From Actinomycetospora cinnamomea (lineage in GTDB: Bacteria > Actinomycetota > Actinomycetes > Mycobacteriales > Pseudonocardiaceae), in the NCBI RefSeq assembly GCF_003096675.1, contig NZ_QEKW01000015.1, positions 62,001 through 126,000 of the forward strand: DNA of 64,000 bases, in the 5' to 3' direction. Made by a program: the position numbers and the translations under genes. How positions within the stretch are numbered: position 1 is the stretch's first letter; every line of letters begins with the position of its first letter. Under the pieces are notes generated by a model. It was not told the origin of the DNA and did no database searches. It was given only the letters and a program-made list of their open reading frames with translations. This document shows positions 3,790 through 59,234 of the stretch, one piece after another.

Positions 3790-3910
3790 CGCGACCTCCG
3801 CCGGGCTACAAGCGAGGGCGTTCGGTTTGTGCCGATCCTACAACTCGTGCCCGACGGAGCCGTCGCATCCTCGACCGGAGAGCGCGACGAACCACGAGAG
3901 GAGTGCAGCG

Positions 3911-43227: not shown

Positions 43228-43253
43228 GGGGTCAGTGTGCTCCGGCCCGCCCC

Positions 43254-44468
43254 TCAGGTCACGGGCGCGGTGCGCGGCGCCGGCGGGGGGATGACGGGCT
43301 CGTCGGCGGGCTCGCGGTCCGGGCCGTCGGTGCGGTCACCCGCGACGTCCGGCTCCGCGCGGTGGGTGCCGCCGGACGGGGAGCTCCCGGAGCCGATCAA
43401 CGCCTCGACCCAGCGGGCGCTCGGGTCGCAGTCGACCAGCACCGCCTTGATCAGCAACGTCGCGGGGATCGCGAGCAGGGCGCCGAGCGGCCCGAGGACC
43501 CAGGCCCAGAACAGCAGCGCCACGAACGTGACGACCGTCGAGAGCCCGACCGCGTCGCCGGTGAAGCGTGGCTGGATCACCGACTGCACCAGCGCGTTGA
43601 GGATGATGTAGACGCCCACCACGGCGAGCCCCGTCTGCCAGCCGCCGATGAGCAGCCCGAGGACCGCGGGCGGGATCACCCCGATGACGAAGCCGATGTT
43701 CGGGATGAAGTTGGTGATGAACGACAGCAGGCCCCACAGCACCACCAGCGGAATCCCCATGATCGCGAGGGCGATCGAGTCCAGCACCGCCACGATCAGG
43801 CCGAACACCGCGGTGACGACGAGGTAGCGCCGCGTTCCGCGGGCGAAGCCCTGGAGGGCGGAGACCATGTGCGGCCGGTCCGCGCCGATGTCGTCGAGCC
43901 GCCGCGCGGTCCCGTTCGCCTCGGCGACGAGGAACAGCAGCAGCGCGAGGATGAACACGATGCTGGTCAGCGCGCCGGACAGGCCCGAGAGGACGCCCCC
44001 CACGGCTCCGAGGATCTGCCCGAGGTCGGCGGACGACGCCGTCTGCCGGGCCTGCGCCGGGTCGAAGCCGGCGCGCGTGAGGGCCGTCGACACCGACGCG
44101 GTCAACTGCTGGATGCGGTCGGCGTACTGCGGGAGCAGCGCCACCAGCTGCCCGACCGAGGCCAGCAGCACCCAGACCAACCCCAGGATGACCCCGAAGA
44201 TCACCACGAGGAGGGCGAGCACGGTCGACCACGCCGGCAGGCCCCGGCGGCGCATCCACCCCTGGATCGGGCTCACCGCGATCACCACGACGAGCGCGAG
44301 CAGGATCGGCGCGATGAGCCAGGCGCCGGCCTGGAGGCCGGCGATCGTGATGACGATGGCGGCCGCGCCGAGCAGCAGCATCAGGGCGCGGGGGACACCG
44401 GCCGCGGTCCGGCGCGACGAGCTCCCGGCCCGCGGGCCGGCGTCGGGCGCCTCGGTGGGAGTCGACAT
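43254..44468 (-). CDS. AI-2E family transporter (UPF0118)
   Basis: The 404-residue membrane protein has about eight helices and the family marks: ALVVVIAVSPIQGWMRRRGLPAWSTVLALLVVI near 55-90, GIPLVVLWGLLSFITNFIPNIGFVIGVIPPAVLGLL near 258-292 and VQPRFTGDAVGLSTVVTFVALLFWAWVLGPLGALLAIPATLLIKAVL near 318-365. Family members export small molecules or Na+ ions, and a true autoinducer role is rarely shown. The C-terminal 40 residues are disordered. ATG at 44468. A perfect MalT-box-like dyad (44503-44521) sits in the divergent promoter. Confidence 0.88.
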   Translation of the reverse strand: MSTPTEAPDAGPRAGSSSRRTAAGVPRALMLLLGAAAIVITIAGLQAGAWLIAPILLALVVVIAVSPIQGWMRRRGLPAWSTVLALLVVIFGVILGLVWVLLASVGQLVALLPQYADRIQQLTASVSTALTRAGFDPAQARQTASSADLGQILGAVGGVLSGLSGALTSIVFILALLLFLVAEANGTARRLDDIGADRPHMVSALQGFARGTRRYLVVTAVFGLIVAVLDSIALAIMGIPLVVLWGLLSFITNFIPNIGFVIGVIPPAVLGLLIGGWQTGLAVVGVYIILNALVQSVIQPRFTGDAVGLSTVVTFVALLFWAWVLGPLGALLAIPATLLIKAVLVDCDPSARWVEALIGSGSSPSGGTHRAEPDVAGDRTDGPDREPADEPVIPPPAPRTAPVT

Positions 44469-44502
44469 GGGCCGGACGGTAGGAACGCGGCGCGCGGAAC
44501 GG

Positions 44503-44521
44503 CTCACCCGCGCGGGGTGAG
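44503..44521. promoter_or_regulatory. MalT-box-like dyad, site A (perfect)
   Basis: CTCACCC-GCGCG-GGGTGAG is a perfect inverted repeat of 7-bp arms with a 5-bp spacer between the divergent starts at 44468 and 44557. It is the best copy of a motif repeated across 44-58 kb. Confidence 0.65.
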
Positions 44522-44556
44522 CCCGCGGCGACCACCGCTGCCTAGCGTGCCCCGCG

Positions 44557-45483
44557 ATGAGCGCATCCCCCAGCGTCCCCGCGGACGCGCCCGCCTGGCG
44601 GGGCCGGTGGCGGGACACCCGCACGCGCTACGAGGCGTCCCGGATCGGGCTGCTCCAGCGCCGAGTGGTGGACGTCCGGCTCACCCAGCAGGCGCTGATC
44701 CTCGCCGCCCTCGCCTTCATGCTCGTCGTGCCCGCGCTCATCACGCTCGCCGCGTTCCTGCCGCTGGGACGTCCCGGCGGAGCCCTGAGTGGCTTCGCAC
44801 AGCGGGCCGGGCTGACGCCCGAGGCCACCCGCGACCTGCAGCAGCTCTTCCCGACCACCACGACGGTCTCGGGGGCCACGACGGGGGTCGGCCTGCTGCT
44901 GACGGTGATCCTCACCGTGCGGTGGCCGCTCGCGCTGCAGCGCGGCTACGAGCTGGTCTGGGGCCTGCCGCCCCGGGGCGTGACCGCGCTGTGGCGCCCG
45001 CTCGCCTGGGTCGTGGGCTTCCTCGCGCTCGCCGCCGCGGCGGTCCTCGTGGGGCCCGTCCTCGACGCCGGGATGCGGGTGCTGGTCATCCTGGTCGCGG
45101 GCACGCCCCTCGCGGTGGCGTGGGCGTGGTGGACCCAGCACCTCCTGCTCGCCGGGCGGATCGGGTGGTCCCGCCTGCTGCCGGGCGCGCTGCTCACCGG
45201 GCTCGGCCTGGTGGGCCTGCGGCTCGCGGCGGCCGTCCTCCTGTCACCGCAGATCACCTCCCACCACCGGCAGTACGGCCCGCTCGGCGTCGTCTTCGTG
45301 ATCCTCTCGTGGTTCGTCGCCTTCGGCGTGGTGATGCTCGGGGGCGCCGTGGTGGGTCACTTCCTCGCCGAGGGCCGGCGCCCGGCCGTCGCGTCACCCC
45401 GCGGGGATGAGGCCCCCGCGCCCGGGCCGGACGAGAGTCCCGACGAGCCAGGAGCACCGGCTCGTGGCACCGGAGGAGGATGA
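44557..45483 (+). CDS. YihY/BrkB family inner-membrane protein
   Basis: The 308-residue protein has about six helices and the YihY/BrkB pattern: RYEASRIGLLQRRVVDVRLTQQALILAALAFMLVVPALITLAAFLPLG near 28-75, LQRGYELVWGLPPRG near 128-142, and QYGPLGVVFVILSWFVAFGVVMLGGAVVGHFLAE near 247-280. It was once called ribonuclease BN, but the family is now seen as transporters or membrane factors. The C-terminal 30 residues are acidic and Pro-rich. It is followed after 3 bp by the DUF1269 gene, so they are one operon. Confidence 0.87.
   Translation: MSASPSVPADAPAWRGRWRDTRTRYEASRIGLLQRRVVDVRLTQQALILAALAFMLVVPALITLAAFLPLGRPGGALSGFAQRAGLTPEATRDLQQLFPTTTTVSGATTGVGLLLTVILTVRWPLALQRGYELVWGLPPRGVTALWRPLAWVVGFLALAAAAVLVGPVLDAGMRVLVILVAGTPLAVAWAWWTQHLLLAGRIGWSRLLPGALLTGLGLVGLRLAAAVLLSPQITSHHRQYGPLGVVFVILSWFVAFGVVMLGGAVVGHFLAEGRRPAVASPRGDEAPAPGPDESPDEPGAPARGTGGG
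45393..45411. promoter_or_regulatory. MalT-box-like dyad, site B
   Basis: GTCACCC-CGCGG-GGATGAG lies in the 3' end of the YihY gene about 75 bp before the DUF1269 start; the right arm reads GGGGATGAGG, a direct match to the MalT-box consensus GGGGAKGAGG. Confidence 0.5.
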
Positions 45484-45486
45484 CCG

Positions 45487-46002
45487 ATGGCGACCCTGAC
45501 CGCGTGGAAGTTCCCCACCCCCGAGGGCGCGGAGGCGGCCCTCGCGACGCTCGAACGGCTCCAGAAGGAGGAGCTGATCCGGCTGGAGGACGCGGCCGTC
45601 GTGACGTGGCCCGCCGACCGCAAGCGGCCCAAGACCCGCCAGCTGCACAACCTCGTCGGCGGCGGCGCCCTCGGCGGGAGCTTCTGGGGCATGCTCTTCG
45701 GGCTGATCTTCTTCGTTCCGCTGCTCGGGCTGGTGATCGGCGCTGCGGCCGGGGCCGCCGCGGGCTCGCTGTCCGACGTCGGCATCGACGACGACTTCAT
45801 CAACGACGTCCGGTCGAAGGTCACGCCGGGGACCTCGGCGCTGTTCGCCCTGACGTCGAACGCCGTGCAGGACAAGGTGGTCGAGGCCTTCCGTGGCAGC
45901 CACGCCGAGCTGCTCCACACGAACCTGTCGAGCGAGCAGGAGGCTCAGCTGCGCGAGGTGTTCACCGACGTCGACGAGGAGGCGCCGGCCGTCCGGGCGT
46001 GA
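45487..46002 (+). CDS. DUF1269 family membrane protein
   Basis: The 171-residue protein has the DUF1269 layout: LTAWKFPTPEGAEAALATLERLQKEELIRLEDAAVVTWPADRKRPKTRQLHNLVGGGALGGSFWGMLFGLIFFVPLLGLVIGAAAGAAAG, that is an N-terminal alpha/beta part (1-55) and two hydrophobic helices (about 57-95), then DVGIDDDFINDVRSKVTPGTSALFALTS. Known members sit in the membrane and occur in stress-related gene sets. ATG at 45487 follows GGAGGAGG. It overlaps the YihY operon by close spacing (3 bp). Confidence 0.88.
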   Translation: MATLTAWKFPTPEGAEAALATLERLQKEELIRLEDAAVVTWPADRKRPKTRQLHNLVGGGALGGSFWGMLFGLIFFVPLLGLVIGAAAGAAAGSLSDVGIDDDFINDVRSKVTPGTSALFALTSNAVQDKVVEAFRGSHAELLHTNLSSEQEAQLREVFTDVDEEAPAVRA

Positions 46003-46059
46003 ACCCCGTCGGGCCCGTCGGCGGGAGGGACGACCCCGCCGGCGGGTCGCCGCGTGCGG

Positions 46060-46275
46060 TCACCCCTCGGGCGGCTCCGGCACCTGCAGCAGCGAGACGA
46101 GCTCGAGGCCGAGCGCCTGGATGCGGTCGAGCACCGTGTGCACCTCGTCGGCGTCCCGCGACCATCCCGAGAGGACGGTCTCCGCGGGCACCTCCTCGAC
46201 GGTCAGGCCCGGGAAGGCGGCCCGCGTCCGGTCGGACAGGCGGCCGCTGACCCGGATCTCGAAGCGTCCCGACAC
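46060..46275 (-). CDS. small protein, paralog of the gene at 56112
   Basis: From the GTG at 46275 (GAGGAG seven bases upstream) the 71-residue product reads VSGRFEIRVSGRLSDRTRAAFPGLTVEEVPAETVLSGWSRDADEVHTVLDRIQALGLELVSLLQVPEPPEG. It shares the order FEIRVSG-LS...A-F...VEE...TVL-G...D...HTVL..I..LGLELVS with the 56112 protein. It looks like a compact alpha/beta domain. The two copies flank the three MalT-type regulators. The function is unknown; the conserved context suggests a role under those regulators. Confidence 0.7.
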   Translation of the reverse strand: MSGRFEIRVSGRLSDRTRAAFPGLTVEEVPAETVLSGWSRDADEVHTVLDRIQALGLELVSLLQVPEPPEG

Positions 46276-46352
46276 GGCCGTCTCCTCGCCTCCACCGGTG
46301 GCCCGGACGGCCACCCTCGACGGGGATCGTCGGCCCGGGAGCCCGCGGACGC

Positions 46353-46371
46353 CTCATCCCGCGCAGGTGAA
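46353..46371. promoter_or_regulatory. MalT-box-like dyad, site C
   Basis: CTCATCC-CGCGC-AGGTGAA lies 78 bp upstream of the GTG at 46275 and 21 bp past nothing but the stop of the regulator gene at 46392, so it most likely serves the small protein. A weaker copy, GCCACCC-TCGAC-GGGGATC, is at 46310-46328. Confidence 0.5.
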
Positions 46372-46391
46372 CGGCAGGGAAACGGTGGGGC

Positions 46392-48995
46392 TCACACGAG
46401 CAGGCCCCGCTCCCGGGCGCGGGTGACGGCGTGGCGCCGGGTGGAGACGCCGAGCTTCGCGTAGATCGAGCGGATCTGGGTCTTGACGGTGTTGACGGAG
46501 ACCACGAGCTCCTCGGCCATCGCCGGGGCGGCGAGCAGGGAGGGGAGCAGGGCGAGGACGACCAGCTCGCGCTCGGACAGCGGGGGTGCGGCCTCGGGCG
46601 CCGCGCCGCGGCAGACCGCCGCGACCCGGGCGTCGAAGCCCGCCACCGGGGTCCGTTCGCCCAGCAGCGCCCGGGCCCGCACGCCGGCGAGGGCGAACGG
46701 GCGCACGAGGTCGTGGGCCCGCCCGGCGGCGAGCGCGGCGTCGAGCGCCGACCGCGCCCGGGCGGTGTCCTCGCCGCGCAGGGCCGTCTCGGCGGCGAGG
46801 AGGTGGGCCTCCACGCGCAGGGTGCCCGGCGGCCGGTCGCGTCCCAGCAGCGGGCCGACCGCGGTCCGCGCGGCCTCCCAGCGCCCGGTCGCCGCCTCGA
46901 CCCACGCCCGCATCAGCCGGACCTCGTCGGTCTCGCCGGTGCGCGCCACGAGCCAGGTGGTCACGGCGTGCGCGGCCCGCACGTTGCCGAGCAGCAGCGC
47001 GGCCCGGTGCTCGAGCAGCGCGAGCGCGGCGGCGACCGCCGCCGGCAGCGCGGTGTCCCCGAGCGCCTCGCGGGCCGCTCGGGTCGCGGCGGCCCCGGCG
47101 CCACGTCGGCCGAGGTCGCCGACGGCCGCCCCGTGCACCGCGCGCAGGGCGTACGCGTCGGCCGCGGCGAGCCGGACCGACTCCTCGAGGAGCTCGGCGC
47201 AGCGCGCGGCGGCGCGGGCCGGGTCCCCGCGCAGCAGGTCGGCCCACGCGAGCACGGCGGCCGTGCCGGCCGTCCGCACCGGCGTTGCGTGCCGGTCGGC
47301 CCGCAACGCGGCCTCGGCGGGTCCCGTCACCCCGCGGGGGTCGCCGTCGACCACGGCGGTCAGGGCGAGCCCGGCGTACGCGTCGGCCTCGAGCCGGGCG
47401 AAGCCGCCGGCACGGGCCGCGGCCAGGGCGCGCCGGAGCTCGGCGCGGGCGGCGTCCGTGTCGCCGGCCCCGGCGGTGGCGAGCAACGACGTCCCCCGGG
47501 CGAGGTGCAGCAGCCCGGCCGACGCCGGGTCGTCGGGCACCGCGACCCCGGTCGCGCCCGCGGACGGTCGCGGGCCGGCGCCGGCGGCGGACGCGAACAG
47601 CTCGGCCGTCGCGCGCAGCGCCGCGAGCCCGGGTCCGGGGGGCGCCGGCGGCGCGGGTCGAGCGGGCACGGCCGCGCGCGCCGACCGCAGCAGGGCCGCG
47701 GCGGAGGCGGGCTCCCGGTCGGCGAGGTGGACGAGCGCGGCGATCAGTGCCAGGTGCGGGTCGTCGCGCCGCGTGGGGGTGTCGAGCCCGGCGAGCGCGC
47801 GGCGCAGGGCCGGGAGCTCGCCGCGCGCGAGGAGCGGGACGGCCACGCGGCGGAGCAGGTCGGCGGTCAGGGCGGGGTCGTCCGCCCGCTCGGCGTGGCG
47901 CAGGGCGTGCGCGGGCTCGGCGTGCTCGGCCCACCAGCGGGCTGCGACGGCGTGCTGTCGGCGGTGCCGGTCGGGCCGCCGGCGCGCGAGATCCGCGTCG
48001 AGGTGGGAGCGCACGAGGGTGTGGAGGCGGTGCGTGCCGGGGTCGACGCGGTCGACCATCCCGAGCCCGTGCGTGAGCTCCTCGAGGCGCCGGGCGGCGT
48101 CGGGGTGTCCGCTCAGGGTGACGGCCAGCGGGTCGGGGAGGCGCCCGCAGACGGCGAGGTCACCCAGCAGCGCACGGTCGTCCGGGGTCAGGCCCGCCAG
48201 GATCTCGCCGCCGAGGTAGTCGGCGACCGAGCGTTCGTCGCCCGAGAACCGGGCGAGGAAGGCGCCGGGCTCCTCGCGGTCCCGGCGCAGGGCGAGCACC
48301 GCGAGCCGCAGGCCGGCGGCCCAGCCCTCGGTGCGCCGGTGCAGGACCGCGACCTCGTCGCCGGTCAGCGGGACCCCGCACGACGCCGCGAGCGCGGCCG
48401 CCTCGTCGACGGTGAACCGGAGGTCGCGCACCCGCAGCTCGCACAGCCCGTCGGAGAGGCGCAGGCGGGGCAGGCCCACGGCCGGGTCGGAGCGGGCGGC
48501 GAGCACCAGGCGGACCCCGGCCGGGCGGTGGCGCACGAGCCGCGCGAGGGCGCGGCTGCCCGAGCGGCGGTGGGACAGGACGTGGGCGTCGTCGAGGACG
48601 AGGCGCAGGGGAACCGGCAGGTCGTCGAGGCCGTCGAGCAGCGCGTCGGCGATGTCGTCGCCCGCAGCCGCCCGGCCGCGCAGCCCGTGCAGCGGGTCGT
48701 CGGCGGGCACCACGTCGGCGGCGAGCACGGCGGCGAGCACGGCGGCCCAGAACCGGTCCGGGTCGGCGTCGTCCCGGTCCAGCCCCACCCAGGCCGTCGC
48801 GGTCTGCTGGTGCTGCTCCTGGTCGTGACGGGCCCACTCGGCCAGCAGCACGGTCTTGCCCGACCCCGCGGGCGCGATCACCACGATCAGCTGCCCCGCC
48901 GCGGCGGCCGCGAGCCGCGCCCGCAGCGCCGGGCGCGGCACCGACCATGCGGGCAGCGGCGGCACCACCGTCCTGCTCGCGGGTATGCGGACCAT
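46392..48995 (-). CDS. MalT-type ATP-binding LuxR family regulator 1
   Basis: The 867-residue protein is a large LuxR/MalT (LAL-type) regulator: Walker A APAGSGKT at 41-48, a LVLDDAHVL sensor near 125, an AAA/winged region to about 330, helical TPR-like repeats (about 340-780) and a C-terminal LuxR HTH near 800-860 (LSERELVVL...VVSVNTVKTQIRSIYAKLGVSTRRHAV). ATG at 48995. It closes the string of minus-strand regulators; the 110-bp gap upstream holds three direct MalT-half-sites (49041-49085), which suggests control by itself or its neighbours. Confidence 0.9.
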   Translation of the reverse strand: MVRIPASRTVVPPLPAWSVPRPALRARLAAAAAGQLIVVIAPAGSGKTVLLAEWARHDQEQHQQTATAWVGLDRDDADPDRFWAAVLAAVLAADVVPADDPLHGLRGRAAAGDDIADALLDGLDDLPVPLRLVLDDAHVLSHRRSGSRALARLVRHRPAGVRLVLAARSDPAVGLPRLRLSDGLCELRVRDLRFTVDEAAALAASCGVPLTGDEVAVLHRRTEGWAAGLRLAVLALRRDREEPGAFLARFSGDERSVADYLGGEILAGLTPDDRALLGDLAVCGRLPDPLAVTLSGHPDAARRLEELTHGLGMVDRVDPGTHRLHTLVRSHLDADLARRRPDRHRRQHAVAARWWAEHAEPAHALRHAERADDPALTADLLRRVAVPLLARGELPALRRALAGLDTPTRRDDPHLALIAALVHLADREPASAAALLRSARAAVPARPAPPAPPGPGLAALRATAELFASAAGAGPRPSAGATGVAVPDDPASAGLLHLARGTSLLATAGAGDTDAARAELRRALAAARAGGFARLEADAYAGLALTAVVDGDPRGVTGPAEAALRADRHATPVRTAGTAAVLAWADLLRGDPARAAARCAELLEESVRLAAADAYALRAVHGAAVGDLGRRGAGAAATRAAREALGDTALPAAVAAALALLEHRAALLLGNVRAAHAVTTWLVARTGETDEVRLMRAWVEAATGRWEAARTAVGPLLGRDRPPGTLRVEAHLLAAETALRGEDTARARSALDAALAAGRAHDLVRPFALAGVRARALLGERTPVAGFDARVAAVCRGAAPEAAPPLSERELVVLALLPSLLAAPAMAEELVVSVNTVKTQIRSIYAKLGVSTRRHAVTRARERGLLV

Positions 48996-49040
48996 CGCGG
49001 GCGACCTCCGTCTCGTCGCCACGGAGAGTGTCGCGCGGGC

Positions 49041-49085
49041 GGGTGAGACGGCGTCCCACCCGGAGGATGAGGCGGGACGGGTGAC
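49041..49085 (-). promoter_or_regulatory. three MalT half-sites before regulator 1
   Basis: GGGTGAG at 49041-49047, GGATGAG at 49065-49071 and GGGTGAC at 49079-49085 are direct repeats in the 110-bp gap before the ATG at 48995, with a CCCACCC between the first two. This clustering matches the way MalT binds several tandem boxes. Confidence 0.5.
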
Positions 49086-49105
49086 GGTGTCGGAGACGCG
49101 ACCAC

Positions 49106-51823
49106 TCACAGCAACCCGAGGGTGCGTGCGCGGCGGACCGCCTCCCGGCGTCCGGTGGCCCCGAGCTTGCGGTACACCGACCGCTGGTGGGTCTTCACGG
49201 TGTTCAGCGAGACGTAGAGCTCGGCGGCGATCTCGGCGTTCGACAGCGTGCTCGCGAGGTAGCGCAGCATCGTCGCCTCGCGCTCGGTGAGCGGCTCGGC
49301 GAGGGCGCGCCGCCGCACGGCGGGGTCGGGGGTCGTGCCCGTGAGGCGCTCGAGCAGGTCGACGGCGAAGGACGCGGCGCCGCTGCCGCGGTCGATGCGC
49401 CGGCGCAGCAGGTCCGTGAGCGAGGGCTCGGCGAGGAACGGCCGGCGCAGGCCGTCGGGAGCGGCGGCGAGGAGGGCCTGCTCGAGCAGGTCGAGGGCCC
49501 GCTCCGGGTCGCCGGCCCGCCGGCGGGCCGCCGCCGCGACGACGCAGGCGCCGACGCGCACCCGGGGGAGCGCGCTGGCCACCGTGGTGCCCAGGGCATG
49601 CTCGACGCCCTCGTCGCCCAGGTGCAGGCGCAGGAGGGCCGCCGCGACCCGACCCGCCTCGGTGCGCGGCGCGCCGAGACGGTCGGCCAGCGCCCGGGCC
49701 GCCTCGGGGTTGCCCCCGCGGGCCAGGAGGTCGGCCTCGCCCAGCCGCCACTGCTCGGCCAGCGGCCGCGGCGGGGTCCACGTCCCGGTGCGGGCGCCGG
49801 CGACCCGGAGGCGCTCGAGCGCCTCCTCGCGGTCGTCCGCGGCGTCGCGGCGGGACGCGAGGACCAGCGACCGCGCGAGCAGGACGTGCGGCTCGGGCGC
49901 GATCTCCTCGACGTCGGCGAGCCGTCCGAGCCAGAGGTCGGTGTCGGAGAGCTCGTCGCGGTCGACGGTCAGCCGGGCCATCGCCAGGTAGGCGGGCGCC
50001 ACCTGGGGGGTCTGCGCCCAGCCCGACCCGGTGGCCGTGGCGATCACCTCGCGGGCCCGCGCCGCCGCGGTGTCGAGCTCGCCCCGCTCGCAGGCGAGCA
50101 GGGCGAGGTGGGACGCGGCGTTGACGCGGGGGAGCGCCGGCGGTCCGCCCGAGCCGGCGGCCTCCGCCGTCCGGCGCAGGTGCGCCTCCGCCGCCTCGAG
50201 GTCACCGAGCCAGAGCTCGGCGGTCCCGAGGTTGGTGAGCACGACGGCGGGGACGATCTCCGCGTCCAGCACGCCCCAGCGATCGAGGGTGGCGACGTCC
50301 AGGGTCACCGTGCGGTAGGCGCGGGCCAGGGCCTCGAGATCGCCGGACACCCGCGCGCGGGCGGCCTCGATGAGCCCGTGGTGGACGGCGAGGCGCTGCC
50401 GGCGGCCCTCGCCGAGCTCCCCGGCGCCCCGGCGGGCGGCGTCGACGAGGGTCCGGACCTGGGTCGTGTCGCCCGTGGTGATCCGGGCGCCCGCCAGCGC
50501 GGTCGCGAGCTCGGGTCGCTCGAGCAGCACCGGGTGCGGGACGCCGCCGAGGATGCGCGCGACCTCCTCCGCGGAGCCGCGCAGGACCAGCGACACCAGG
50601 TGGGCGGCGAGCACGTCGGCGGCGAGCGCCCAGAGCTCGCCGTGGACGCTCGACCGCAGGGCCTCGAGCGGCATGCCGTGGCGGCGGAACCACACGGCGG
50701 CCCGGCGGTCGCGGTCCCGCCGGGTCCGGCGGGGGACCGGACGCGCCCGCAGCAGGTCGAGGACCAGGCGGTGGAGCCGGTACCAGCGCCCCGGGTGGTC
50801 GAGCGCCTGCACGAACAGGTGCGACGCCGAGAGCTCCGCGAGCAGCGCCGCCCCGTCGTCGCGCCCGGTCAGCGCGTCGGCGAGGTCGGCGCAGACCAGG
50901 TCGACGGCGCTGACCTGCTCGAGGAAGGCCAGCAGCTCGGGTGTCTGGCGGTCGAGGACCTCCTCGAGCAGGTAGCCGGACACGCTGTGCGCGTCGCCGG
51001 AGAAGGCTGCGACGGCCGCGTCGACGTCCGGGCGGGTCGCGAGGTCGAGCGCGGCCAGCCGCATCCCTGCGGCCCAGCCCCCGGTGCGGGCCACCATCTC
51101 GTGGACGTGACCGCCGTCGGCCGGCACGCCGAGCTGCGCGAACAGCGCGGCGGCCTCGTCGTCGCGGAAGGCGAGGTCGTCGGGTCGGATCTCGGCGAGC
51201 AGGCCGGCCAGCCGCAGCCGGGTCAGCGGCCACGGCGGGTCGCGGCGCGTGGTGGCGACGAGCGCGAGCGACGGTACGGGGCGCTCCACCAGGCTGCGCA
51301 GCCCCGCGTGGACGGCCGGGGACGTCACCTCGTGCAGGTCGTCGAGGACGAGGACGACGGGCCGGTCGGCCGTCCGCAGCGCGCGGGCGAACACCCCGGG
51401 CAGCTCCTCGGGGTCGCCGACGCCGTCGAGCCGGCGCAGGGCCGCCGTGGCCGCCGGCCCGGCGCCCGGCCCCACCGCGCGGGCGAGCGCGGTCCAGAAC
51501 GTCCGCGGGTCGTCGTGGCCCGGGCCGAGCGTGACCCAGGCCGGCTGCCGGCCCCCCGCCCCGCTCGCGAGCCACGAGCCCACCAGCAGTGTCTTCCCCC
51601 ACCCGGCCGGCCCCACGACGAGGGTGACCGCCGCGTCAGCCACGGCGCGGTCGAGCAGCGCGTGCAGCCGGGGCCGCTCCACGACGTGGGTCGCCACCGG
51701 CGCGGCGTGCTCGGCGTCGTCGCGGCGGCCGAGCGGATCCGCCCGGGCGCGGGAGGTCGGCGCCCAGGGTCCCTCGATCACCGGCCCGGACACCCCGGCC
51801 GGCCTCGCGCGGGAGGTGGCCAC
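49106..51823 (-). CDS. MalT-type ATP-binding LuxR family regulator 2
   Basis: The 905-residue protein has Walker A GPAGWGKT at 71-78, LVLDDLHEVTSPAVHAGL near 157, the AAA/winged part to about 370, TPR-like helices and a C-terminal LuxR HTH near 840-900 (LTEREATMLRYLASTLSNAEIAAELYVSLNTVKTHQRSVYRKLGATGRREAV). The GTG at 51823 is 4 bases after the MFS stop, so translation is likely coupled to the regulator 3-MFS pair. Inducers of this class are often sugars or metabolites; here the ligand is unknown. Confidence 0.9.
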   Translation of the reverse strand: MATSRARPAGVSGPVIEGPWAPTSRARADPLGRRDDAEHAAPVATHVVERPRLHALLDRAVADAAVTLVVGPAGWGKTLLVGSWLASGAGGRQPAWVTLGPGHDDPRTFWTALARAVGPGAGPAATAALRRLDGVGDPEELPGVFARALRTADRPVVLVLDDLHEVTSPAVHAGLRSLVERPVPSLALVATTRRDPPWPLTRLRLAGLLAEIRPDDLAFRDDEAAALFAQLGVPADGGHVHEMVARTGGWAAGMRLAALDLATRPDVDAAVAAFSGDAHSVSGYLLEEVLDRQTPELLAFLEQVSAVDLVCADLADALTGRDDGAALLAELSASHLFVQALDHPGRWYRLHRLVLDLLRARPVPRRTRRDRDRRAAVWFRRHGMPLEALRSSVHGELWALAADVLAAHLVSLVLRGSAEEVARILGGVPHPVLLERPELATALAGARITTGDTTQVRTLVDAARRGAGELGEGRRQRLAVHHGLIEAARARVSGDLEALARAYRTVTLDVATLDRWGVLDAEIVPAVVLTNLGTAELWLGDLEAAEAHLRRTAEAAGSGGPPALPRVNAASHLALLACERGELDTAAARAREVIATATGSGWAQTPQVAPAYLAMARLTVDRDELSDTDLWLGRLADVEEIAPEPHVLLARSLVLASRRDAADDREEALERLRVAGARTGTWTPPRPLAEQWRLGEADLLARGGNPEAARALADRLGAPRTEAGRVAAALLRLHLGDEGVEHALGTTVASALPRVRVGACVVAAAARRRAGDPERALDLLEQALLAAAPDGLRRPFLAEPSLTDLLRRRIDRGSGAASFAVDLLERLTGTTPDPAVRRRALAEPLTEREATMLRYLASTLSNAEIAAELYVSLNTVKTHQRSVYRKLGATGRREAVRRARTLGLL

Positions 51824-51827
51824 CTCG

Positions 51828-53105
51828 CTACACCTCGCGGCCGGCCGGCCGGGCGCCGGCGGCCGCGGCGGTCGCGTCGCCCCGGATGACGGCCAGGTCC
51901 GCGGGGTACGCGCGCGCCGCCCGCCCGAAGGCGGCGGCCGCCACGAGCCCGAGGACGGCCACGACCGCGAGGGCGTGGGCGAGCCCGAACGTCCCGGCGA
52001 GGACGCCGGTGAGGACCGGACCGACCGTGAGCCCGAGGAGGTTCTGGGCCACGACGAGCACCGCGACCGCCGTGGCGCGCACCCCCGGGTGGGTCACGTC
52101 GACCACGGCGGCCGCCGCGGGCCCGACCGCGGCCGTCACCGCCGCGGAGCCGAGGAGCACGAGGACCACCTGCCCCGGCCCCGGGGGCAGCACCGCGAAC
52201 GCCGGCACGAGCAGCGCGCTCGCCACGAGGCCGGCCACCAACGGCACCCGGAGGCGGGTGTGCGGGTCGCGGCGCGCCGCACGGTCGGAGAGCACCGCCG
52301 CGATCCCGGTGCCCAGCGCCCCGGCGAGCACCACGCCCGCCGCCAGCCCGCCGGCCTGCGCGGGGGCGAGGCCGAGGCCGCGCTCGAGGTGGGTCGGCAA
52401 CCACGTGTAGAGCGACGACGCGACGACCAGCAGCAGCACCATGCCCGCGACCGCGCCGCCGACGGTCCGCGTGCGCAGCACCCCGGCCAGGGCCCGCGGC
52501 CCCAGCGTCGTCGTGCGGACCGTCGGGTAGTCGCGCACCCGCAGGACGGCCAGCGCCAGCAGCAGCCCCGGCACGGCGAGGATCCCGACGGCCCACCGCC
52601 AGCCCCACTGCGCCGCGACCGCGCTGCCCAGCGCCATCCCCACGACCGTCCCGAGGGGACCGCACGCCTGGAACGCGCCGAGCACCGCGGCCCGCCGCCC
52701 CGCCGGGAACAGCGTCGCGAGCAGGGCACCTCCCGCCGGGCCGTAGCCCGCCTCGCCGGCCCCGACCCCGATCCGGGCCGCGAACAGCGCGGCCGGGCCC
52801 TGCGCGAACCCCGACGCGGCCGAGGCCGTGCTCCACACGACCCCCATGGCGGCGATCGCGCGCACCCGGCTCCACCGGTCCACGAGCGTCGCGACGGGCA
52901 GGGCGCCCAGCGCCACCGTCAACGTCACCACCGAGACGAGCGCGCCGAGGGTCGCGTCGTCGAGCCCCCACTCCCGGCGCAGGTAGGGGAACGCCGCGAC
53001 GAGGACCTGGCGGTCGGCGAAGTCGAGCACCATGAGGGCGCAGAGCAGCACGAGGACCGACGAGGGCGACGGGCCCGGCCGGGGCTCGCTCCCCTCCCCG
53101 CTCAT
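51828..53105 (-). CDS. major facilitator superfamily transporter in a regulator operon
   Basis: The 425-residue protein has twelve helices and MFS motif A in ALPVATLVDRWSRVRAI near 66-82, plus RIGVGAGEAGYGPAGGALLATLFPAGRRAAVLGAFQACGPLGTVVG near 108-155, typical of the sphingolipid-/glycerophosphate-like MFS group. The last 40 residues include an FGRAARAYPAD tail. Its ATG overlaps the stop of regulator 3 (ATGA at 53102-53105) and it is followed within 4 bases by regulator 2. The tight link suggests it moves the inducer or the compound these regulators sense. Confidence 0.88.
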   Translation of the reverse strand: MSGEGSEPRPGPSPSSVLVLLCALMVLDFADRQVLVAAFPYLRREWGLDDATLGALVSVVTLTVALGALPVATLVDRWSRVRAIAAMGVVWSTASAASGFAQGPAALFAARIGVGAGEAGYGPAGGALLATLFPAGRRAAVLGAFQACGPLGTVVGMALGSAVAAQWGWRWAVGILAVPGLLLALAVLRVRDYPTVRTTTLGPRALAGVLRTRTVGGAVAGMVLLLVVASSLYTWLPTHLERGLGLAPAQAGGLAAGVVLAGALGTGIAAVLSDRAARRDPHTRLRVPLVAGLVASALLVPAFAVLPPGPGQVVLVLLGSAAVTAAVGPAAAAVVDVTHPGVRATAVAVLVVAQNLLGLTVGPVLTGVLAGTFGLAHALAVVAVLGLVAAAAFGRAARAYPADLAVIRGDATAAAAGARPAGREV

Positions 53106-55618
53106 CCCAGGAGGCCCTGCTCGTGGGCGACGAGCACGGCGTCCCGGCGGGTCGTCACCCCGAGCTTGCCGTACAGCGCGCGGACGTGGGTCTTCACCGT
53201 GTTGATCGAGACGTCGAGCGCCCCGGCGATCTCGTCGAGGCTCTCCAGGGACGGCAGCCGGATCAGCACGTCGTGCTCGCGGCCGCTGAGCCCGGTCCCG
53301 GCCGGCGACGTGGCGCCGGCGGCGAGGGCGCGGGCGACGAACCCCGCACGGGGCGCCCCGGCCGCGAGCTCGTCGACGAGCAGGGCACGCACGGCCGTGT
53401 CGGCGTGCGCGAAGGGTCGCAGGGCGTCGAGCGGCGCGGCGAGGTCGGCGGCGTGCCGGGCCGCGGTCCGGGCCCCCGGACGGTCCTCCCGCGCCAGCCG
53501 GCCGCGGCTCTCGAGCAGCCACGCCTCGACGTCGAGAGCGTCCGGTGTGGGCTGCGGACGCCGGGTGAGCAACGGGGCGAGCGCGGCGCGGGCGGCGGCG
53601 TGGTCACCGGCCGCGGCGGCGGTGCGGGCACGCACGAGGGCCGTGGCGGGGCTGTCCGGGCACCGGCCGGCGAGCCACGCGGCGACCGCCGTGGCCGCCG
53701 TGCGGTGGCCGAGCGCGAGGGCCGCCCGGTGCTCCAGGAGCGCCGCGACCGCGGTGAGGGCGGCCGGGACCGGGTCGCCGCCGAGCTCCGCCCGCGCCGC
53801 CTGCAGCTCGAGCAGCCCGACCGCGCGGTGCCCGAGGTCGAACGCGGCGCCGCCGTGGGCGCACCGCAGGGCGAAGCGCACCGTCGCGACCGGCGCGTCC
53901 CCGGGGGTGGCGCGTGCCCGGGCGGGGTCGCCGGCCAGGAGCGCGGCGTGGGCCTCGACGGCGCGCGCCGCCGCCGTCCACGGGGCGACGGCGGGCGTCG
54001 AGACGCCGGCCGCGAGCGCCCGGCCGGCCGTCTCGCGCGCCCCGGGCACGTCCCCCTCGGCCCACAGGGCGACCGCGAGCAGGGCGTGGGCACGCTGCAC
54101 GAGGACGTCGAGCCCGTGCCGGTGGGCCAGGGCGAGGGCGGCCTCGAGCTCGGCGCGGGCCCCCGGCGCGTCGTCGTCGCCGAGCGCGGCGGACCCCCGA
54201 CCGAGGTGGACGTGCGCGGCCAGGGACGGGTCGGCGGGCGGGTGCCCGGCGGCCGGTCGCGGGACCCGGCACCCGAGCAGCCGCTCGGTCGCGTCGCGGA
54301 AGGTGGTGTCGACCCCGGGGCCCGCTCGGCGTGCCGCCCGCAGCGCGGGGCCCACGGGCTCCCCGCGGGCGAGGCGGACGTGGATCGCGGCGGTGGCGAG
54401 ACGCGGGTCCGTGGGGTCCCGCCCGATCGCGGCGGCCAGCACGTCGTGCTCACCCCGGCCCGCGAGCCACGGCGCCCAGCGGCCGACGAGGTCCGCGAGG
54501 AGCCCGCCGTCACCGGCCATGGCGGCGTGCCGGAGCGCCCGGACCGGGTCGCCCTGCTCGGACCACCAGCGGGCCGCGACGGCCTCCCGGTCGGCCACCA
54601 GCGTCGGGCCGCGGCGCCCGAGGTCGGCGACGAGGTGGGTGCGCAGGAGCTCGGGCAGGTGGTAGGGGTCTGCGGCGGTCCCGCTCCCGCCGACGAGACC
54701 GGTGTCGCGGGCGAGGTCGTCGAGCAGTTCCGCCGCGTCCTCCCGCCCCGCCAACCGGGCGGCCAGCCCCGCCGGGACCCGCGCGGCGACGCTGGTGCGG
54801 CGCAGCACCTCGCGGTGCGGCTCGGAGAGCCCGGCGAGCACCTCGTCGACGAGGTAGTCGGCGACGGGCCGCTCGTCGCCGGAGAACCCGTCGAGGAAGC
54901 GCGCCGGATCGGGGTGCTCGCGCAGCGACAGCGCGGCCAGGCGCAGCCCCGCCACCCAGCCGCCGGTGCGTTCGTGCAGCACGGCGACCTGCGCGTCGTC
55001 CAGGTCGATGCCGCACGCCGAGAGCAGGGCCGCCGACTCGGCGGGCGAGAACTGCAGCTGCTCGGCGCGCACCTCCACCAGGCGCTCGTCCAGGCGCAAC
55101 CGCGGCAGGGGCAGCGGTGGGTCCCGCCGCCCGGCGAGCACGAGCCGCAGCCCGGGCGAGGCGTCACGCAGGAGGACTTCCAGCCCGTGCACGGAGAGCG
55201 GGTCGGTGACGTGCTGGACGTCGTCGAGCACCAGCCGGACCGGCGTCGGCAGCGACGCGAGCGCCTCGGTGAGGTCGGCGAGGAACTCCGGAGCCATGAC
55301 CGACCGGGACACGACCAGCCGGTGGAGCCGGTGGGACGGCGGCACGGCGGGCAGGGCGGTCAGGGCGGCCAGCACCGCGCTCCACAGCCGCCGCGGATCG
55401 CGATCCTCGGGCTCCAGGGTGACCCAGGCGGTGTCGGGGGCGTCGTCGTCGCCGATCCACGACGCGAGGACCGAGGTCTTGCCGAAGCCCGGGGGCGCGG
55501 ACACGAGCACGAGGTCGCGGTCCGCGCCCCGGGCGAGGCGGGCCTCCACGTCCCGGCGCCGGACGTGCTCCGGCGGGAGGGGCGGGAGACCGGTCCTCGA
55601 CCGGCGGACGTGGGCCAT
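53102..55618 (-). CDS. MalT-type ATP-binding LuxR family regulator 3
   Basis: The 838-residue protein has Walker A APPGFGKT at 41-48, LVLDDVQHVTDPLSVHGLEVLL near 128, LVLAGRRDPPLPLPRLRL near 157, winged part, TPR-like helices and a C-terminal LuxR HTH near 775-835 (LSGREHDVLIRLPSLESLDEIAGALDVSINTVKTHVRALYGKLGVTTRRDAV). ATG at 55618 is the first start of the run regulator 3 - MFS - regulator 2. It shares domain order with the other two; the three are clear paralogs. Its upstream region (55619-56111) faces the small-protein gene. Confidence 0.9.
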   Translation of the reverse strand: MAHVRRSRTGLPPLPPEHVRRRDVEARLARGADRDLVLVSAPPGFGKTSVLASWIGDDDAPDTAWVTLEPEDRDPRRLWSAVLAALTALPAVPPSHRLHRLVVSRSVMAPEFLADLTEALASLPTPVRLVLDDVQHVTDPLSVHGLEVLLRDASPGLRLVLAGRRDPPLPLPRLRLDERLVEVRAEQLQFSPAESAALLSACGIDLDDAQVAVLHERTGGWVAGLRLAALSLREHPDPARFLDGFSGDERPVADYLVDEVLAGLSEPHREVLRRTSVAARVPAGLAARLAGREDAAELLDDLARDTGLVGGSGTAADPYHLPELLRTHLVADLGRRGPTLVADREAVAARWWSEQGDPVRALRHAAMAGDGGLLADLVGRWAPWLAGRGEHDVLAAAIGRDPTDPRLATAAIHVRLARGEPVGPALRAARRAGPGVDTTFRDATERLLGCRVPRPAAGHPPADPSLAAHVHLGRGSAALGDDDAPGARAELEAALALAHRHGLDVLVQRAHALLAVALWAEGDVPGARETAGRALAAGVSTPAVAPWTAAARAVEAHAALLAGDPARARATPGDAPVATVRFALRCAHGGAAFDLGHRAVGLLELQAARAELGGDPVPAALTAVAALLEHRAALALGHRTAATAVAAWLAGRCPDSPATALVRARTAAAAGDHAAARAALAPLLTRRPQPTPDALDVEAWLLESRGRLAREDRPGARTAARHAADLAAPLDALRPFAHADTAVRALLVDELAAGAPRAGFVARALAAGATSPAGTGLSGREHDVLIRLPSLESLDEIAGALDVSINTVKTHVRALYGKLGVTTRRDAVLVAHEQGLLG

Positions 55619-55987
55619 GCGGCGTCCTCGGGTGGCTGCGCGCCCTCGGGCTGCTGAAGACGCTGCTCATCGCGACGATAGGAGCCGCGACCCTGGTCGG
55701 GTAGCGGACAACCTCCTCGTCCTGCGCGGGACCTCCGGCCCTGGCGGTACCGACGTTCGGCCTATTGGGCGACGCGGTGGAGCCGCGCGATCACGGGCGG
55801 TCCAGTCGGGGGCGGCCCGGCCCGCCGCTACCGCCGCGCGATGGCGATCCGCAGCGCGGCCGATGTCGGTCGTCTCGTCCGCCGAGAAGACCGTGGGCTG
55901 GGTCGGTCATCTCGACCCGCCCGGTGCCGATCCGCTCGCCGTCACAGAACAGCGGCCTCGACCGTCGTGGGCGGCCCCCGGGGCGGC

Positions 55988-56006
55988 CTCACCCCGCCGG
56001 GGTGAC
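55988..56006. promoter_or_regulatory. MalT-box-like dyad, site D
   Basis: CTCACCC-CGCCG-GGGTGAC, one base from a perfect dyad, 106 bp upstream of the ATG at 56112. Confidence 0.55.
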
Positions 56007-56025
56007 GGCGCTGCGCCGGGTCCGG

Positions 56026-56044
56026 ACCATCCTCGACGGGTGAG
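56026..56044. promoter_or_regulatory. MalT-box-like dyad, site E
   Basis: ACCATCC-TCGAC-GGGTGAG, 68 bp upstream of the ATG at 56112 and 38 bp from site D. Its TCGAC spacer recurs at 46317-46321 and near 3870. Confidence 0.5.
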
Positions 56045-56111
56045 GGCGGGCGCCCTCCGCGCCCACCACGCTGGGGTCTCGACGCGGGAGGACCGACGGC
56101 GAGGAGGAGCG

Positions 56112-56318
56112 ATGGCGGGCCGGTGCTACGAGTTCCGTGTCGACGGGTGTCTCTCCCCGCGCGCTCGCGAGGCCTTCTGCGACATGGACGTCGAGGAGGC
56201 CCGCCCCGGGGTGGTCCTGCGGGGCGCGGTCGTCGACGACGCCCACCTGCACGGCATCCTCGAGCAGCTGCACCTGCTCGGGCTCACCGTCGTCTCCGCG
56301 CGCCCGGTGGACCGCTAG
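56112..56318 (+). CDS. small protein, paralog of the gene at 46060
   Basis: The 68-residue product reads MAGRCYEFRVDGCLSPRAREAFCDMDVEEARPGVVLRGAVVDDAHLHGILEQLHLLGLTVVSARPVDR. It aligns with the 46060-46275 protein over the full length (YEFRVDG-LS, VEE, GVVLRGAVVDD, HGILEQLHLLGLTVVSA). Cys5, Cys13 and Cys23 are extra. ATG at 56112 has a GAGGAGGAG site upstream. It has two MalT-box-like dyads in front, so it is the best candidate target of regulator 3. The function is unknown. Confidence 0.72.
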   Translation: MAGRCYEFRVDGCLSPRAREAFCDMDVEEARPGVVLRGAVVDDAHLHGILEQLHLLGLTVVSARPVDR

Positions 56319-56343
56319 CGAGTCGCCGAGGCGCCGTCGGGCG

Positions 56344-56613
56344 TCACACCATCTCCAGACCCTCGCCGACGTTGTGGACCAACCGGTGGTCGTGGTCGCG
56401 CGCGAGCACGTGCCCGACGCCGACGGCCAGGGCCACCGGCCAGGAGACCACCTCCGCGACGACGAGGCCGCCGAGGACCACGACGAAGGCGAGGGTGCCG
56501 GTCGGCGGCCAGCCGACCGGGCCGAGGAGGGGGACGTCGACCTGCCAGCGGCCGGCGGTCGTGCTGGAGGTCGTGCCGGGGGTGGTGGTGGTCGTGGACG
56601 GTGTGGTGCTCAC
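56344..56613 (-). CDS. small membrane protein with Thr-rich N-terminus
   Basis: From the GTG at 56613 the 89-residue product has a Ser/Thr/Pro tail (1-22), PLLGPVGWPPTGTLAFVVVLGGLVVAEVVSWPVALAVGVGHVLARDHDHRLVHNVGEGLEMV: one to two hydrophobic helices at about 39-68 and a short His-rich C-terminus. No family is known to me. It is 16 bp downstream of the K+ channel gene on the same strand and likely belongs to the same transcript. Confidence 0.65.
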   Translation of the reverse strand: MSTTPSTTTTTPGTTSSTTAGRWQVDVPLLGPVGWPPTGTLAFVVVLGGLVVAEVVSWPVALAVGVGHVLARDHDHRLVHNVGEGLEMV

Positions 56614-56629
56614 GGCGGGACTCCTCGGG

Positions 56630-57154
56630 TCAGGTCGATGACGCGCCGCGCCGCGACCGGCCGCGCCGGACCGCCTCGAGCACCGCGTTCACGAGGAGCC
56701 CGAGCACGAGCAGGTCGGCGACCATCTGCACCGTCACCAGGGCCCGTGCCGGCTGGCTGAGGGGGGCGATGTCGCCGAACCCGACGGTCGCGAACACCGT
56801 GACGGTGAAGTACAGCGCGTCGATCCGGGTCAGGGGTTGGGTGAACGTGCCGGGGTTCGCCGCGTCGATCACGACGTAGGTCGTGGCGAAGAGCAGGAGG
56901 AACAGGGGGATCGCGCTGGCGAAGGTCTCCACGGCGCGCAGCCCCGGGTACCGGGCCCCCACGATCGCGCGCAGCTGCCAGCCGATCATCCCGACCAGGG
57001 TGGCGAACCCGATCAGGAACAGGACGAGCGTCCCGACGTCCTGCTGGGGGCGCAGCGGCGCCGCGAAGTAGACCACCACGAGCAGGACGATGGTGGCCAG
57101 GGAGCGGGCCAGGACCAGGGCGATGCGTCGCCGTGACGGTGCTTCGGAGTCCAC
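56630..57154 (-). CDS. two-pore-domain-type potassium channel protein
   Basis: From the GTG at 57154 the 174-residue protein has hydrophobic helices near 12-33, 42-58 and 80-100, then a pore loop with the selectivity filter TVGFGD at 123-128 and a last helix near 138-160. TVGFGD is a K+-channel filter (Ion_trans_2 type). There is no cytosolic RCK domain. It would pass K+ and help set membrane potential. It is followed by the small membrane protein at 56344. A strong hairpin (57186-57220) lies just upstream of the start. Confidence 0.85.
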   Translation of the reverse strand: MDSEAPSRRRIALVLARSLATIVLLVVVYFAAPLRPQQDVGTLVLFLIGFATLVGMIGWQLRAIVGARYPGLRAVETFASAIPLFLLLFATTYVVIDAANPGTFTQPLTRIDALYFTVTVFATVGFGDIAPLSQPARALVTVQMVADLLVLGLLVNAVLEAVRRGRSRRGASST

Positions 57155-57185
57155 GGGGACACCCCTACCTCCTCGCGACGTCGCG

Positions 57186-57220
57186 GACGAGGCCCGCCCG
57201 GCGTCCGGGCGGGCCTCGTC
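57186..57220. terminator. hairpin with 16-bp perfect stem and 3-nt loop
   Basis: 57186-57201 and 57205-57220 are perfect inverted repeats with loop CGT. It follows the stop of the minus-strand gene at 57248 and should terminate it before the channel gene starts at 57154. Confidence 0.85.
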
Positions 57221-57247
57221 GACCGTTCCCACGTCCCCGCGCGGAGG

Positions 57248-57715
57248 TCAGTAGTCGGTGCTCTCACCCCACGTCACCATCAGCGCGTAGATCACCACGA
57301 TGTCGAGGGTGATGAGGACCAGCGACCAGATGGGGTAGGCCGGCAGGTAGGCGAGCTGCACGATCGCGTTGATCGCGAGCAGGGTGATGCCGACGCCGCG
57401 GGCCCAGCCCGGCGCCCGACCCAGGAGGCTCATGCCCGTCGCCAGCACCAGGATGCCGAGCACGATGTGGACCCAGCCCCACGCGGTCAGGTCGAACAGC
57501 AGGACGCCCGCGCCCGTCAGCGTCACGTAGGTCGGCGAGAACAGGGCGAACAGGCCCTGGAGGATCCCGAAGCCGCCGACGATGGTCATGACGACGCCGC
57601 CGAACCGGACCCATCCGGTCATGGCGTCCGAGCGGGGTGCGGCCGCCGTGCCGTTCGTCCGGGGTGGCGTCATCGACGCTCTCGAGGCCTGCGTCGGGAT
57701 CTGCTGCTCGGTCAT
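57248..57715 (-). CDS. DUF7144-like four-helix membrane protein
   Basis: The 155-residue protein has a polar N-terminus (1-32) and four helices: GWVRFGGVVMTIVGGFGILQGLFALFSP near 34-60, LTAWGWVHIVLGILVLATGMSLLG near 76-100, GVGITLLAINAIVQLAYLP near 108-126 and SLVLITLDIVVIYALMVTW. This is the common actinobacterial DUF7144 layout. ATG at 57715 has GGAGGAGATC upstream. A perfect MalT-box-like dyad (57781-57799) lies 66 bp upstream. It is ended by the strong hairpin at 57186-57220. Confidence 0.85.
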   Translation of the reverse strand: MTEQQIPTQASRASMTPPRTNGTAAAPRSDAMTGWVRFGGVVMTIVGGFGILQGLFALFSPTYVTLTGAGVLLFDLTAWGWVHIVLGILVLATGMSLLGRAPGWARGVGITLLAINAIVQLAYLPAYPIWSLVLITLDIVVIYALMVTWGESTDY

Positions 57716-57780
57716 GATCTCCTCCGGACACGCGTCGGACGGCTGTCGCCCCGACGCTGCCGCGGCCGCCCACCGCCGAC

Positions 57781-57799
57781 CTCACCCGAGCCGGATGAG
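57781..57799. promoter_or_regulatory. MalT-box-like dyad, site F
   Basis: CTCACCC-GAGCC-GGATGAG, arms complementary except one position, 66 bp upstream of the ATG at 57715 and 21 bp past the DUF5313 stop. Confidence 0.6.
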
Positions 57800-57819
57800 A
57801 ACGGCCCCTCGGGCGGCCG

Positions 57820-58254
57820 TCAGCCCTCCGGCGGCGTCCGGTAGCGGGCCGCGTAACGCTCCGCGGCCGCGGCGTCCTTCTCCGCGGTGCGCTCGGCGCG
57901 CTTCGCGGGACCGGTGCCCAGCGGGTACCCGGCCTTGACCAGCCGGTGCTCGGCGGTCTCGTGCAGGTAGCTGACCGAGAAGATCAGCCCCATGATCGCG
58001 CCGCCGAGAGCGCACATCATCCGCAGCCACAGCGGGCCGGGGACGAGGACGACGATGGCGATCGCGAACGGGGCGATCTGCACGATCGCGCGCAGGACGT
58101 GGCGCAGCCACCAGGTGCGGCAGGTGGTGTCGTGGAGCACCCACGGGGAGTAGCGGGCGGGCAGCCCGCCGCCGTAGGCGTACCAGAGCCACCGGAACGG
58201 GTCCGGCCGCCGGACGGGCGCGGCTCCCACGCGGGCCTCCTCGTTCGTGCTCAT
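57820..58254 (-). CDS. DUF5313 family protein
   Basis: The 144-residue protein (ATG at 58254) has the DUF5313 pattern: PDPFRWLWYAYGGGLPARYSPWVLHDTTCRTWWLRHVLRAIVQIAPFAIAIVVLVPGPLWLRMMCALGGAIMGLIFSVSYLHETAEHRLVKAGYPLGTG, with two hydrophobic helices near 58-98. Its start overlaps the stop of the GntR gene (ATGA at 58251-58254), so they are translated together. The family is confined to actinobacteria and has no known role. Confidence 0.87.
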   Translation of the reverse strand: MSTNEEARVGAAPVRRPDPFRWLWYAYGGGLPARYSPWVLHDTTCRTWWLRHVLRAIVQIAPFAIAIVVLVPGPLWLRMMCALGGAIMGLIFSVSYLHETAEHRLVKAGYPLGTGPAKRAERTAEKDAAAAERYAARYRTPPEG

Positions 58255-59060: not shown

Positions 59061-59234
59061 GGGTCGACCTCCGCGCAGGATGGGGGACCGCGTCGATGGC
59101 GGTGTCGGTCGCGGTGGCCGCAGGGATGCCCCGGCGCGGGGTCGAGCGTAACAACCGCACGACTGTCGGTGAGCATCTTGTCCTCAAAAAGTCAGACGTT
59201 TAGGTTCGGGGTCCCGGACGGGGAGGAGCGCGCG

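Follow-up and report, generated by a model that had tools for sequence, protein, structure and literature searches.

What controls the genes that lie around three large MalT-type regulators in Actinomycetospora cinnamomea? The question is raised by a 64,000-nucleotide stretch of contig NZ_QEKW01000015.1 (positions 62,001 to 126,000, here called the window and numbered from its first letter), in which a 19-bp dyad, CTCAYCC-N5-GGRTGAG, recurs through a cluster at 43-58 kb. An earlier note on this DNA had taken the dyad as the mark of an undescribed MalT-box-like regulon. With a probability of about 0.85, we consider it to be the operator of one or more of the three regulators (LAL1 to LAL3), in a class II activator regulon of the kind reported for Actinoplanes MalT. 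Because the palindrome stands at a fixed spot before genes clustered around these regulators, also in relatives, a role as their common on-switch is very probable. The motif, its fixed spacer, the phase of a -10 element behind it, its conservation and its link to LAL genes were established by computation.

A dyad in fixed phase with a -10 element

The six full dyads that the earlier note had listed are all present, with zero to two mismatches each. The block of half-sites that it had described at 49041-49085 was found as well, and also holds a degenerate dyad at 49053. The sites and their -10-like hexamers, with offsets counted from the dyad, are the following.

44503..44521, both strands: dyad, exact, common to the divergent AI-2E (-) and YihY (+) genes
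44543..44548, + strand: -10-like TAGCGT for YihY, offset 22
44476..44481, - strand: -10-like TACCGT for the AI-2E gene, offset 22
45393..45411, + strand: dyad, one mismatch, 75 bp before DUF1269; -10-like GAGAGT, offset 22
46353..46371, - strand: dyad, two mismatches, before small protein 1; -10-like GACGAT, offset 22
49053..49071, - strand: degenerate dyad, three mismatches, with extra half-sites, before LAL1; -10-like CACTCT, offset 23
55988..56006, both strands: upstream dyad, one mismatch, before small protein 2; -10-like on both strands
56026..56044, + strand: promoter-proximal dyad, two mismatches, 67 bp before small protein 2; -10-like CACGCT, offset 23
57781..57799, - strand: dyad, exact, 65 bp before DUF7144; -10-like CAGCGT, offset 22

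That almost all sites lie upstream of genes, as had been claimed, holds generally, with the correction that the 45393 dyad is within the 3' end of YihY. The reversed pattern served as control in 18 Actinomycetospora genomes, the source genome included. Across them the exact dyad occurs 40 times versus 0 for the control, and 215 versus 17 times with up to one mismatch. The source genome (6.0 Mb in 50 contigs) has 14 sites with at most one mismatch and none for the control, four of them in the window cluster and four on contig C22; at up to two mismatches the counts are 83 and 30. In the loci fetched for comparison, a spacer of 5 yields 78 inverted pairs and each other spacer from 0 to 11 yields 0-3, with direct pairs numbering 0-7 and everted pairs 0-5 over the spacers. 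Outside the genus, 39 inverted pairs have the spacer of 5, against 0-3 for the others.

Among 90 oriented sites, the strongest positions in the 40 nt past the dyad are an A at 23 and a T at 27, as in a -10 hexamer. Of these sites, 45 have NANNNT at offset 22 and 21 have it at offset 23, with three at most for any other offset; outside the genus the counts are 49 and 16 of 120 strand-sites, with no more than four elsewhere. All seven dyads of the window carry it at offset 22-23, those at 44503 and 55988 on both strands. A joint search for dyad and -10 gives nine strand-hits in the window, where a first-order model expects about 1.3. In the whole genome it gives 21 against one for the control, and 16 of these fall in two regulator clusters, in support of a MalT-box-like regulon around the three MalT-type regulators. 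No other place in the 64 kb passes the joint test at up to three mismatches; the bare dyad is found 18 times at that threshold. A weak relative noticed near 3870 is a three-mismatch match at 3864, which we dropped as a member of the regulon because it has no -10 at the right distance. Counted from the hexamer, transcription would begin 33-34 nt past the dyad, placing the operator end near -34 and its centre near -43 and leaving the AI-2E and YihY transcripts almost leaderless.

Placement was analyzed on the 529,742 bases of the fetched loci that are no more than 8 kb away from a LAL or small-protein gene. With up to one mismatch, 63 of 69 sites fall in the 150 bp before a called start, zones that make up 12.7% of the bases (58 of 63 when the source genome is left aside), and the reversed pattern has no sites in these zones. 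Some of the loci (among them G001_C10, G005_C9 and parts of G003_C11) had been picked for exact dyads, and the test uses these same loci. An equal frequency inside genes and far from promoters, which the earlier note had named as the outcome that would speak against a regulon, was thus looked for and not found. Distances from dyad to start peak at 33-37 bp, the remainder ranging over about 49-115 bp. A genome-wide regulon was considered and rejected: of the six sites with at most one mismatch outside the two clusters, four are inside called genes, including one that also precedes another start by 130 bp; of the other two, one has a start 27 bp downstream and one has no start nearby.

An orthologous cluster is present in five relatives (G006, G007, G012, G015 and G016), and the sites recur in its promoters, contrary to the lack of conservation that the earlier note had set out as a second adverse outcome. 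Dyads with up to one mismatch precede DUF1269 and DUF7144 in all five and small protein 2 in two. They also stand at the AI-2E start in all five, the one in G012 falling inside the called gene, which was probably drawn too long at its start. In all four relatives whose stretch covers it, the LAL1 promoter block can be recognised. A search of window positions 43000-60000 against Rfam gave no match, and structured RNA was dropped as an explanation.

The Actinoplanes precedent

The word undescribed has to be given up, because Droste et al. (2020, PMC7567727) already reported such an operator for the MalT protein of Actinoplanes sp. SE50/110. There, TCATCC-N5-GGATGA precedes 17 transcription starts in a region of 51 genes; it overlaps the -35 region, and the 3' end of the palindrome lies 34.4 +/- 1.0 nt from the transcription start. 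Genes of the region are higher on maltose than on glucose and are activated by the MalT-like protein ACSP50_3915. By reverse transcription quantitative PCR, 42 of the 51 genes drop when malT is deleted and 39 go up when it is overexpressed, while maltose genes are unaffected by this regulator. Operator type, position and a MalT-like regulator were therefore already known. We add the regulon of Actinomycetospora, its occurrence in several families, an unannotated neighbour of about 70 amino acids that recurs beside it, and a second cluster on C22.

Compared with the regulon as described there, the half-site and the 5-nt spacer are the same, and the published distance agrees with that implied by the -10 phase here. 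Unlike in Actinoplanes, which belongs to another family, one position per half is T/C and A/G here, half-sites often read GGGTGAG, and a divergent AI-2E/YihY operator is present; the strict T/A form in both halves, TCATCC-N5-GGATGA, is found in none of the seven dyads of the window. The Actinoplanes region holds two MalT-like LuxR regulators and the window three.

A bridge between the two systems is offered by three genomes of 8.8-10.3 Mb from one genus (f3/g319) of another family of the order, each with a region resembling the published one. These regions contain AI-2E, two DUF1269, four DUF7144, SulP, DAGK, HdeD-like and two or three LAL genes, with M48 in two and YihY in one, and hold 12-14 dyads (up to two mismatches) in 57 kb versus 0 for the control. 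In each, two small-protein matches lie about 26 kb apart, and in one we confirmed a class II amidotransferase and PPK2, both named for such regions in PMC7567727. The clusters studied here have AI-2E, DUF1269, DUF7144, SulP, DAGK, HdeD-like and LAL genes in common with these three regions. Together with the published account, they lead us to regard the window as holding a new instance of a described kind of regulon.

Escherichia coli MalT is also a large ATP-binding LuxR-type regulator. Its boxes are repeats of GGGGA(T/G)GAGG as quoted in PMC7567727, and GGATGAG contains the core so quoted, as the earlier note had proposed for the half-site. These boxes are described as repeats and not as 5-nt-spaced dyads, and E. 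coli MalT controls mal genes, while none of the seven predicted targets in the window is a maltose or maltodextrin gene. Identity with E. coli MalT is 26-28% in the N-terminal half and 37-50% in the helix-turn-helix (HTH) region, where LAL1-3 and E. coli MalT share the pattern T-[VI]-K-T-x-x-R-x-x-Y-x-K-L-G. The NCBI cut-off for MalT, 537 bits, is not reached (LAL1 229, LAL2 244 and LAL3 208 bits). Our searches of open-licence papers, most of them judged by listing, turned up no paper with this motif besides PMC7567727, and none that reports the small protein or the occurrence of the regulon in other families.

The regulators, the small proteins and competing readings

The genes of the cluster to which the proposed control applies are listed here.

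43254..44468, - strand: AI-2E family transporter (PF01594), predicted target
44557..45483, + strand: YihY/BrkB family protein (PF03631), predicted target
45487..46002, + strand: DUF1269 protein (PF06897), predicted target
46060..46275, - strand: small protein 1, 71 amino acids, no Pfam match, predicted target adjoining LAL1
46392..48995, - strand: LAL1, MalT-type regulator, also a predicted target; start judged from relatives
49106..51823, - strand: LAL2, MalT-type regulator, strongest LuxR HTH match, MalT-like TPR region
53102..55618, - strand: LAL3, MalT-type regulator
56112..56318, + strand: small protein 2, 68 amino acids, no Pfam match, predicted target adjoining LAL3
57248..57715, - strand: DUF7144 membrane protein (PF23636), predicted target

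The three regulators are 838-905 amino acids long and all have AAA and GerE matches, which places them in the LAL family. In LAL2, the N-terminal half gave a match to the MalT structure 8bob. As in relatives, LAL1 probably begins with the ATG at 48995 (window 48993-48995), a different start from the one picked by the gene caller.

From these features and the operator geometry we infer how binding and activation might work, which LAL acts and that an inducer is involved. A MalT-type STAND regulator would bind inducer and ATP and then oligomerise, and its paired LuxR-type HTH domains would settle on the two GGRTGAG half-sites. Lying over the -35 region, the regulator would recruit RNA polymerase in class II fashion and direct it to the -10 element (NANNNT) 22-23 nt beyond the operator. 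At 44503, a single symmetric operator would serve two divergent promoters. Predicted targets are AI-2E, YihY, DUF1269, DUF7144, the two small proteins and LAL1 itself. LAL2 is our first candidate for the acting regulator, at about even odds, and LAL1, with its degenerate operator, may be cross- or auto-activated.

The small proteins 1 and 2 are related to each other and belong to a family of about 65-90 amino acids that lacks a Pfam domain and is often encoded beside LAL regulators. A search yielded 2058 homologues at E <=0.001; the best 120 of these have no Pfam domain and are named only hypothetical or uncharacterized, and among PDB sequences no match was better than E=0.5. In regions chosen for LAL or small genes, 30 small genes share their region with a called LAL, and all 30 are no more than 10 kb away from it. 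A LAL/LuxR match falls inside the 3-kb small-protein locus in 14 of 24 cases in the family and 20 of 29 in the phylum. In the family sample, the exact dyad occurs in 24 of 33 genomes with the small protein versus 35 of 167 without it (Fisher p ~2e-8).

The strongest competitor holds that another regulator binds the dyad and that the LAL genes are merely co-located targets. We give it roughly one chance in ten. LAL1 is itself a predicted target, and about five sites with up to one mismatch persist even where no LAL1-like match exists (4-7 in five such genomes, two of them only 59% and 84% complete, and 5-21 in the thirteen with a match). Against this stand the half-site, which is the MalT-box core as quoted in PMC7567727, the HTH that the LAL proteins share with MalT, and the deletion and overexpression results that implicate the MalT-like protein in the Actinoplanes data cited above. 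Moreover, genomes with more LAL1-like genes also have more sites (Spearman 0.88, n=18 genomes), and the same holds to a lesser degree for small proteins (0.75, same genomes), although the correlation with LAL genes ignores phylogeny and its LAL counts rest on one query.

That limit is one of several points that weigh against an operator of LAL activators. The -10 pattern is missing at 24 of the 90 oriented sites, and three of the seven dyads in the window carry two or three mismatches. A site with up to two mismatches is found within 170 bp upstream in only 7 of 24 small-protein loci in the family and 8 of 29 in the phylum; in the same loci, the reversed pattern or an equal downstream window gave no site. 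In addition, the three f3/g319 regions have no more than 2, 0 and 1 copies of the strict TCATCC-N5-GGATGA, and the bare dyad in the window, at up to three mismatches, is no commoner than chance, with 18 copies against 15.5 expected, a count that 31 of 100 shuffles reach.

Could a LAL protein instead repress, covering the -35 region to block RNA polymerase? An operator in that position is compatible with either sign of control. Repression is nevertheless very improbable, given that, of the 40 nt following the dyad, only the -10 is conserved as a promoter position and keeps a fixed phase, which is what activator-dependent promoters should show, and that Actinoplanes MalT activates according to the account in PMC7567727. 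The notion that GC-rich palindromes were chosen by eye, through chance or base composition, fits the chance level of the bare dyad in the window and is ruled out, to a degree close to certainty, by the reversed-pattern controls, the spacer scan and the -10 phase, with placement also contradicting it.

Spread of the regulon and possible function

The predicted regulon appears to extend beyond the window. On contig C22 of the same genome, a second cluster (about 3-6 kb and 36-50 kb) with the same dyads contains a LAL, two small proteins, DUF1269, DUF7144, AI-2E and glutaminase genes. Here, dyad and -10 precede two DUF7144 genes, a small protein, two AI-2E genes, DUF389/DUF6325 and two other genes. 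Similar regions were found in families f1, f84, f5 and f21 (14 regions), where the dyad mostly comes with a -10 and the genes behind it resemble HdeD/DUF308, SulP, LapA, DUF389/DUF6325, DUF1269, AI-2E, alkylsulfatase and the small protein. They hold 70 sites (up to two mismatches) versus 2 for the control; since the regions were chosen partly by exact dyads, these counts are not independent, while the -10 phase is. As a separate observation, f3/g49 genomes contain many scattered exact CTCACCC-N5-GGGTGAG sites with recurring spacers, which may belong to another regulon or repeat.

The predicted targets are rich in membrane proteins, and some of their families are linked elsewhere to envelope or acid stress. 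An acid or stress response as the function is suggestive only, from the glutaminase and HdeD-like DUF308 genes here and from arginine deiminase in the published region; direct control was not evident for every glutaminase gene. A broader idea, which we hold tentatively and find doubtful as a whole, is a multi-family regulon in which tandem MalT-type STAND activators, each with an adjacent partner of about 70 amino acids under the same operator, would switch on envelope and membrane genes (AI-2E, YihY, SulP, HdeD-like, DUF389/DUF6325, LapA, DUF7144 and sulfatases). The partner would act as a feedback ligand or inhibitor, and the Actinoplanes region would be one instance. Such a role would correspond to that of MalY, Aes and MalK towards MalT in E. 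coli.

In this way, a single reported regulon grows into a class that can be identified by searching for its combined operator and promoter signature, which allows its targets to be predicted from the sequences of many genomes. Many unannotated membrane genes (DUF1269, DUF7144, DUF389/DUF6325 and the small protein) are thereby grouped into one response with a directly testable trigger. Members of the same regulator family, SCO0877 and SCO7173 of Streptomyces coelicolor, have been studied for phosphate response and actinorhodin (PMC3282765), with no operator given in the passages on them. SCO7173 and a gene for an 89-amino-acid hypothetical protein overlap at the latter's 3' end.

Some smaller observations concern the cluster itself. 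It also includes an ion channel gene and a gene that, from a reading of its sequence, we label an MFS-like transporter. The best named match of LAL1 is from A. straminea (67%), and the matches of LAL2 at 73-80% that carry an organism name are from Actinomycetospora. A sulfatase gene lies between small protein 2 and LAL3 in all five relatives and is missing in the window, where a remnant of 35 residues survives at 55856-55957 on the minus strand (57% identity; 650 bp searched, E=6e-7). With the gene intact in the relatives and this remnant left here, the dyad at 55988 probably once served as a promoter shared with the divergent sulfatase gene, now lost.

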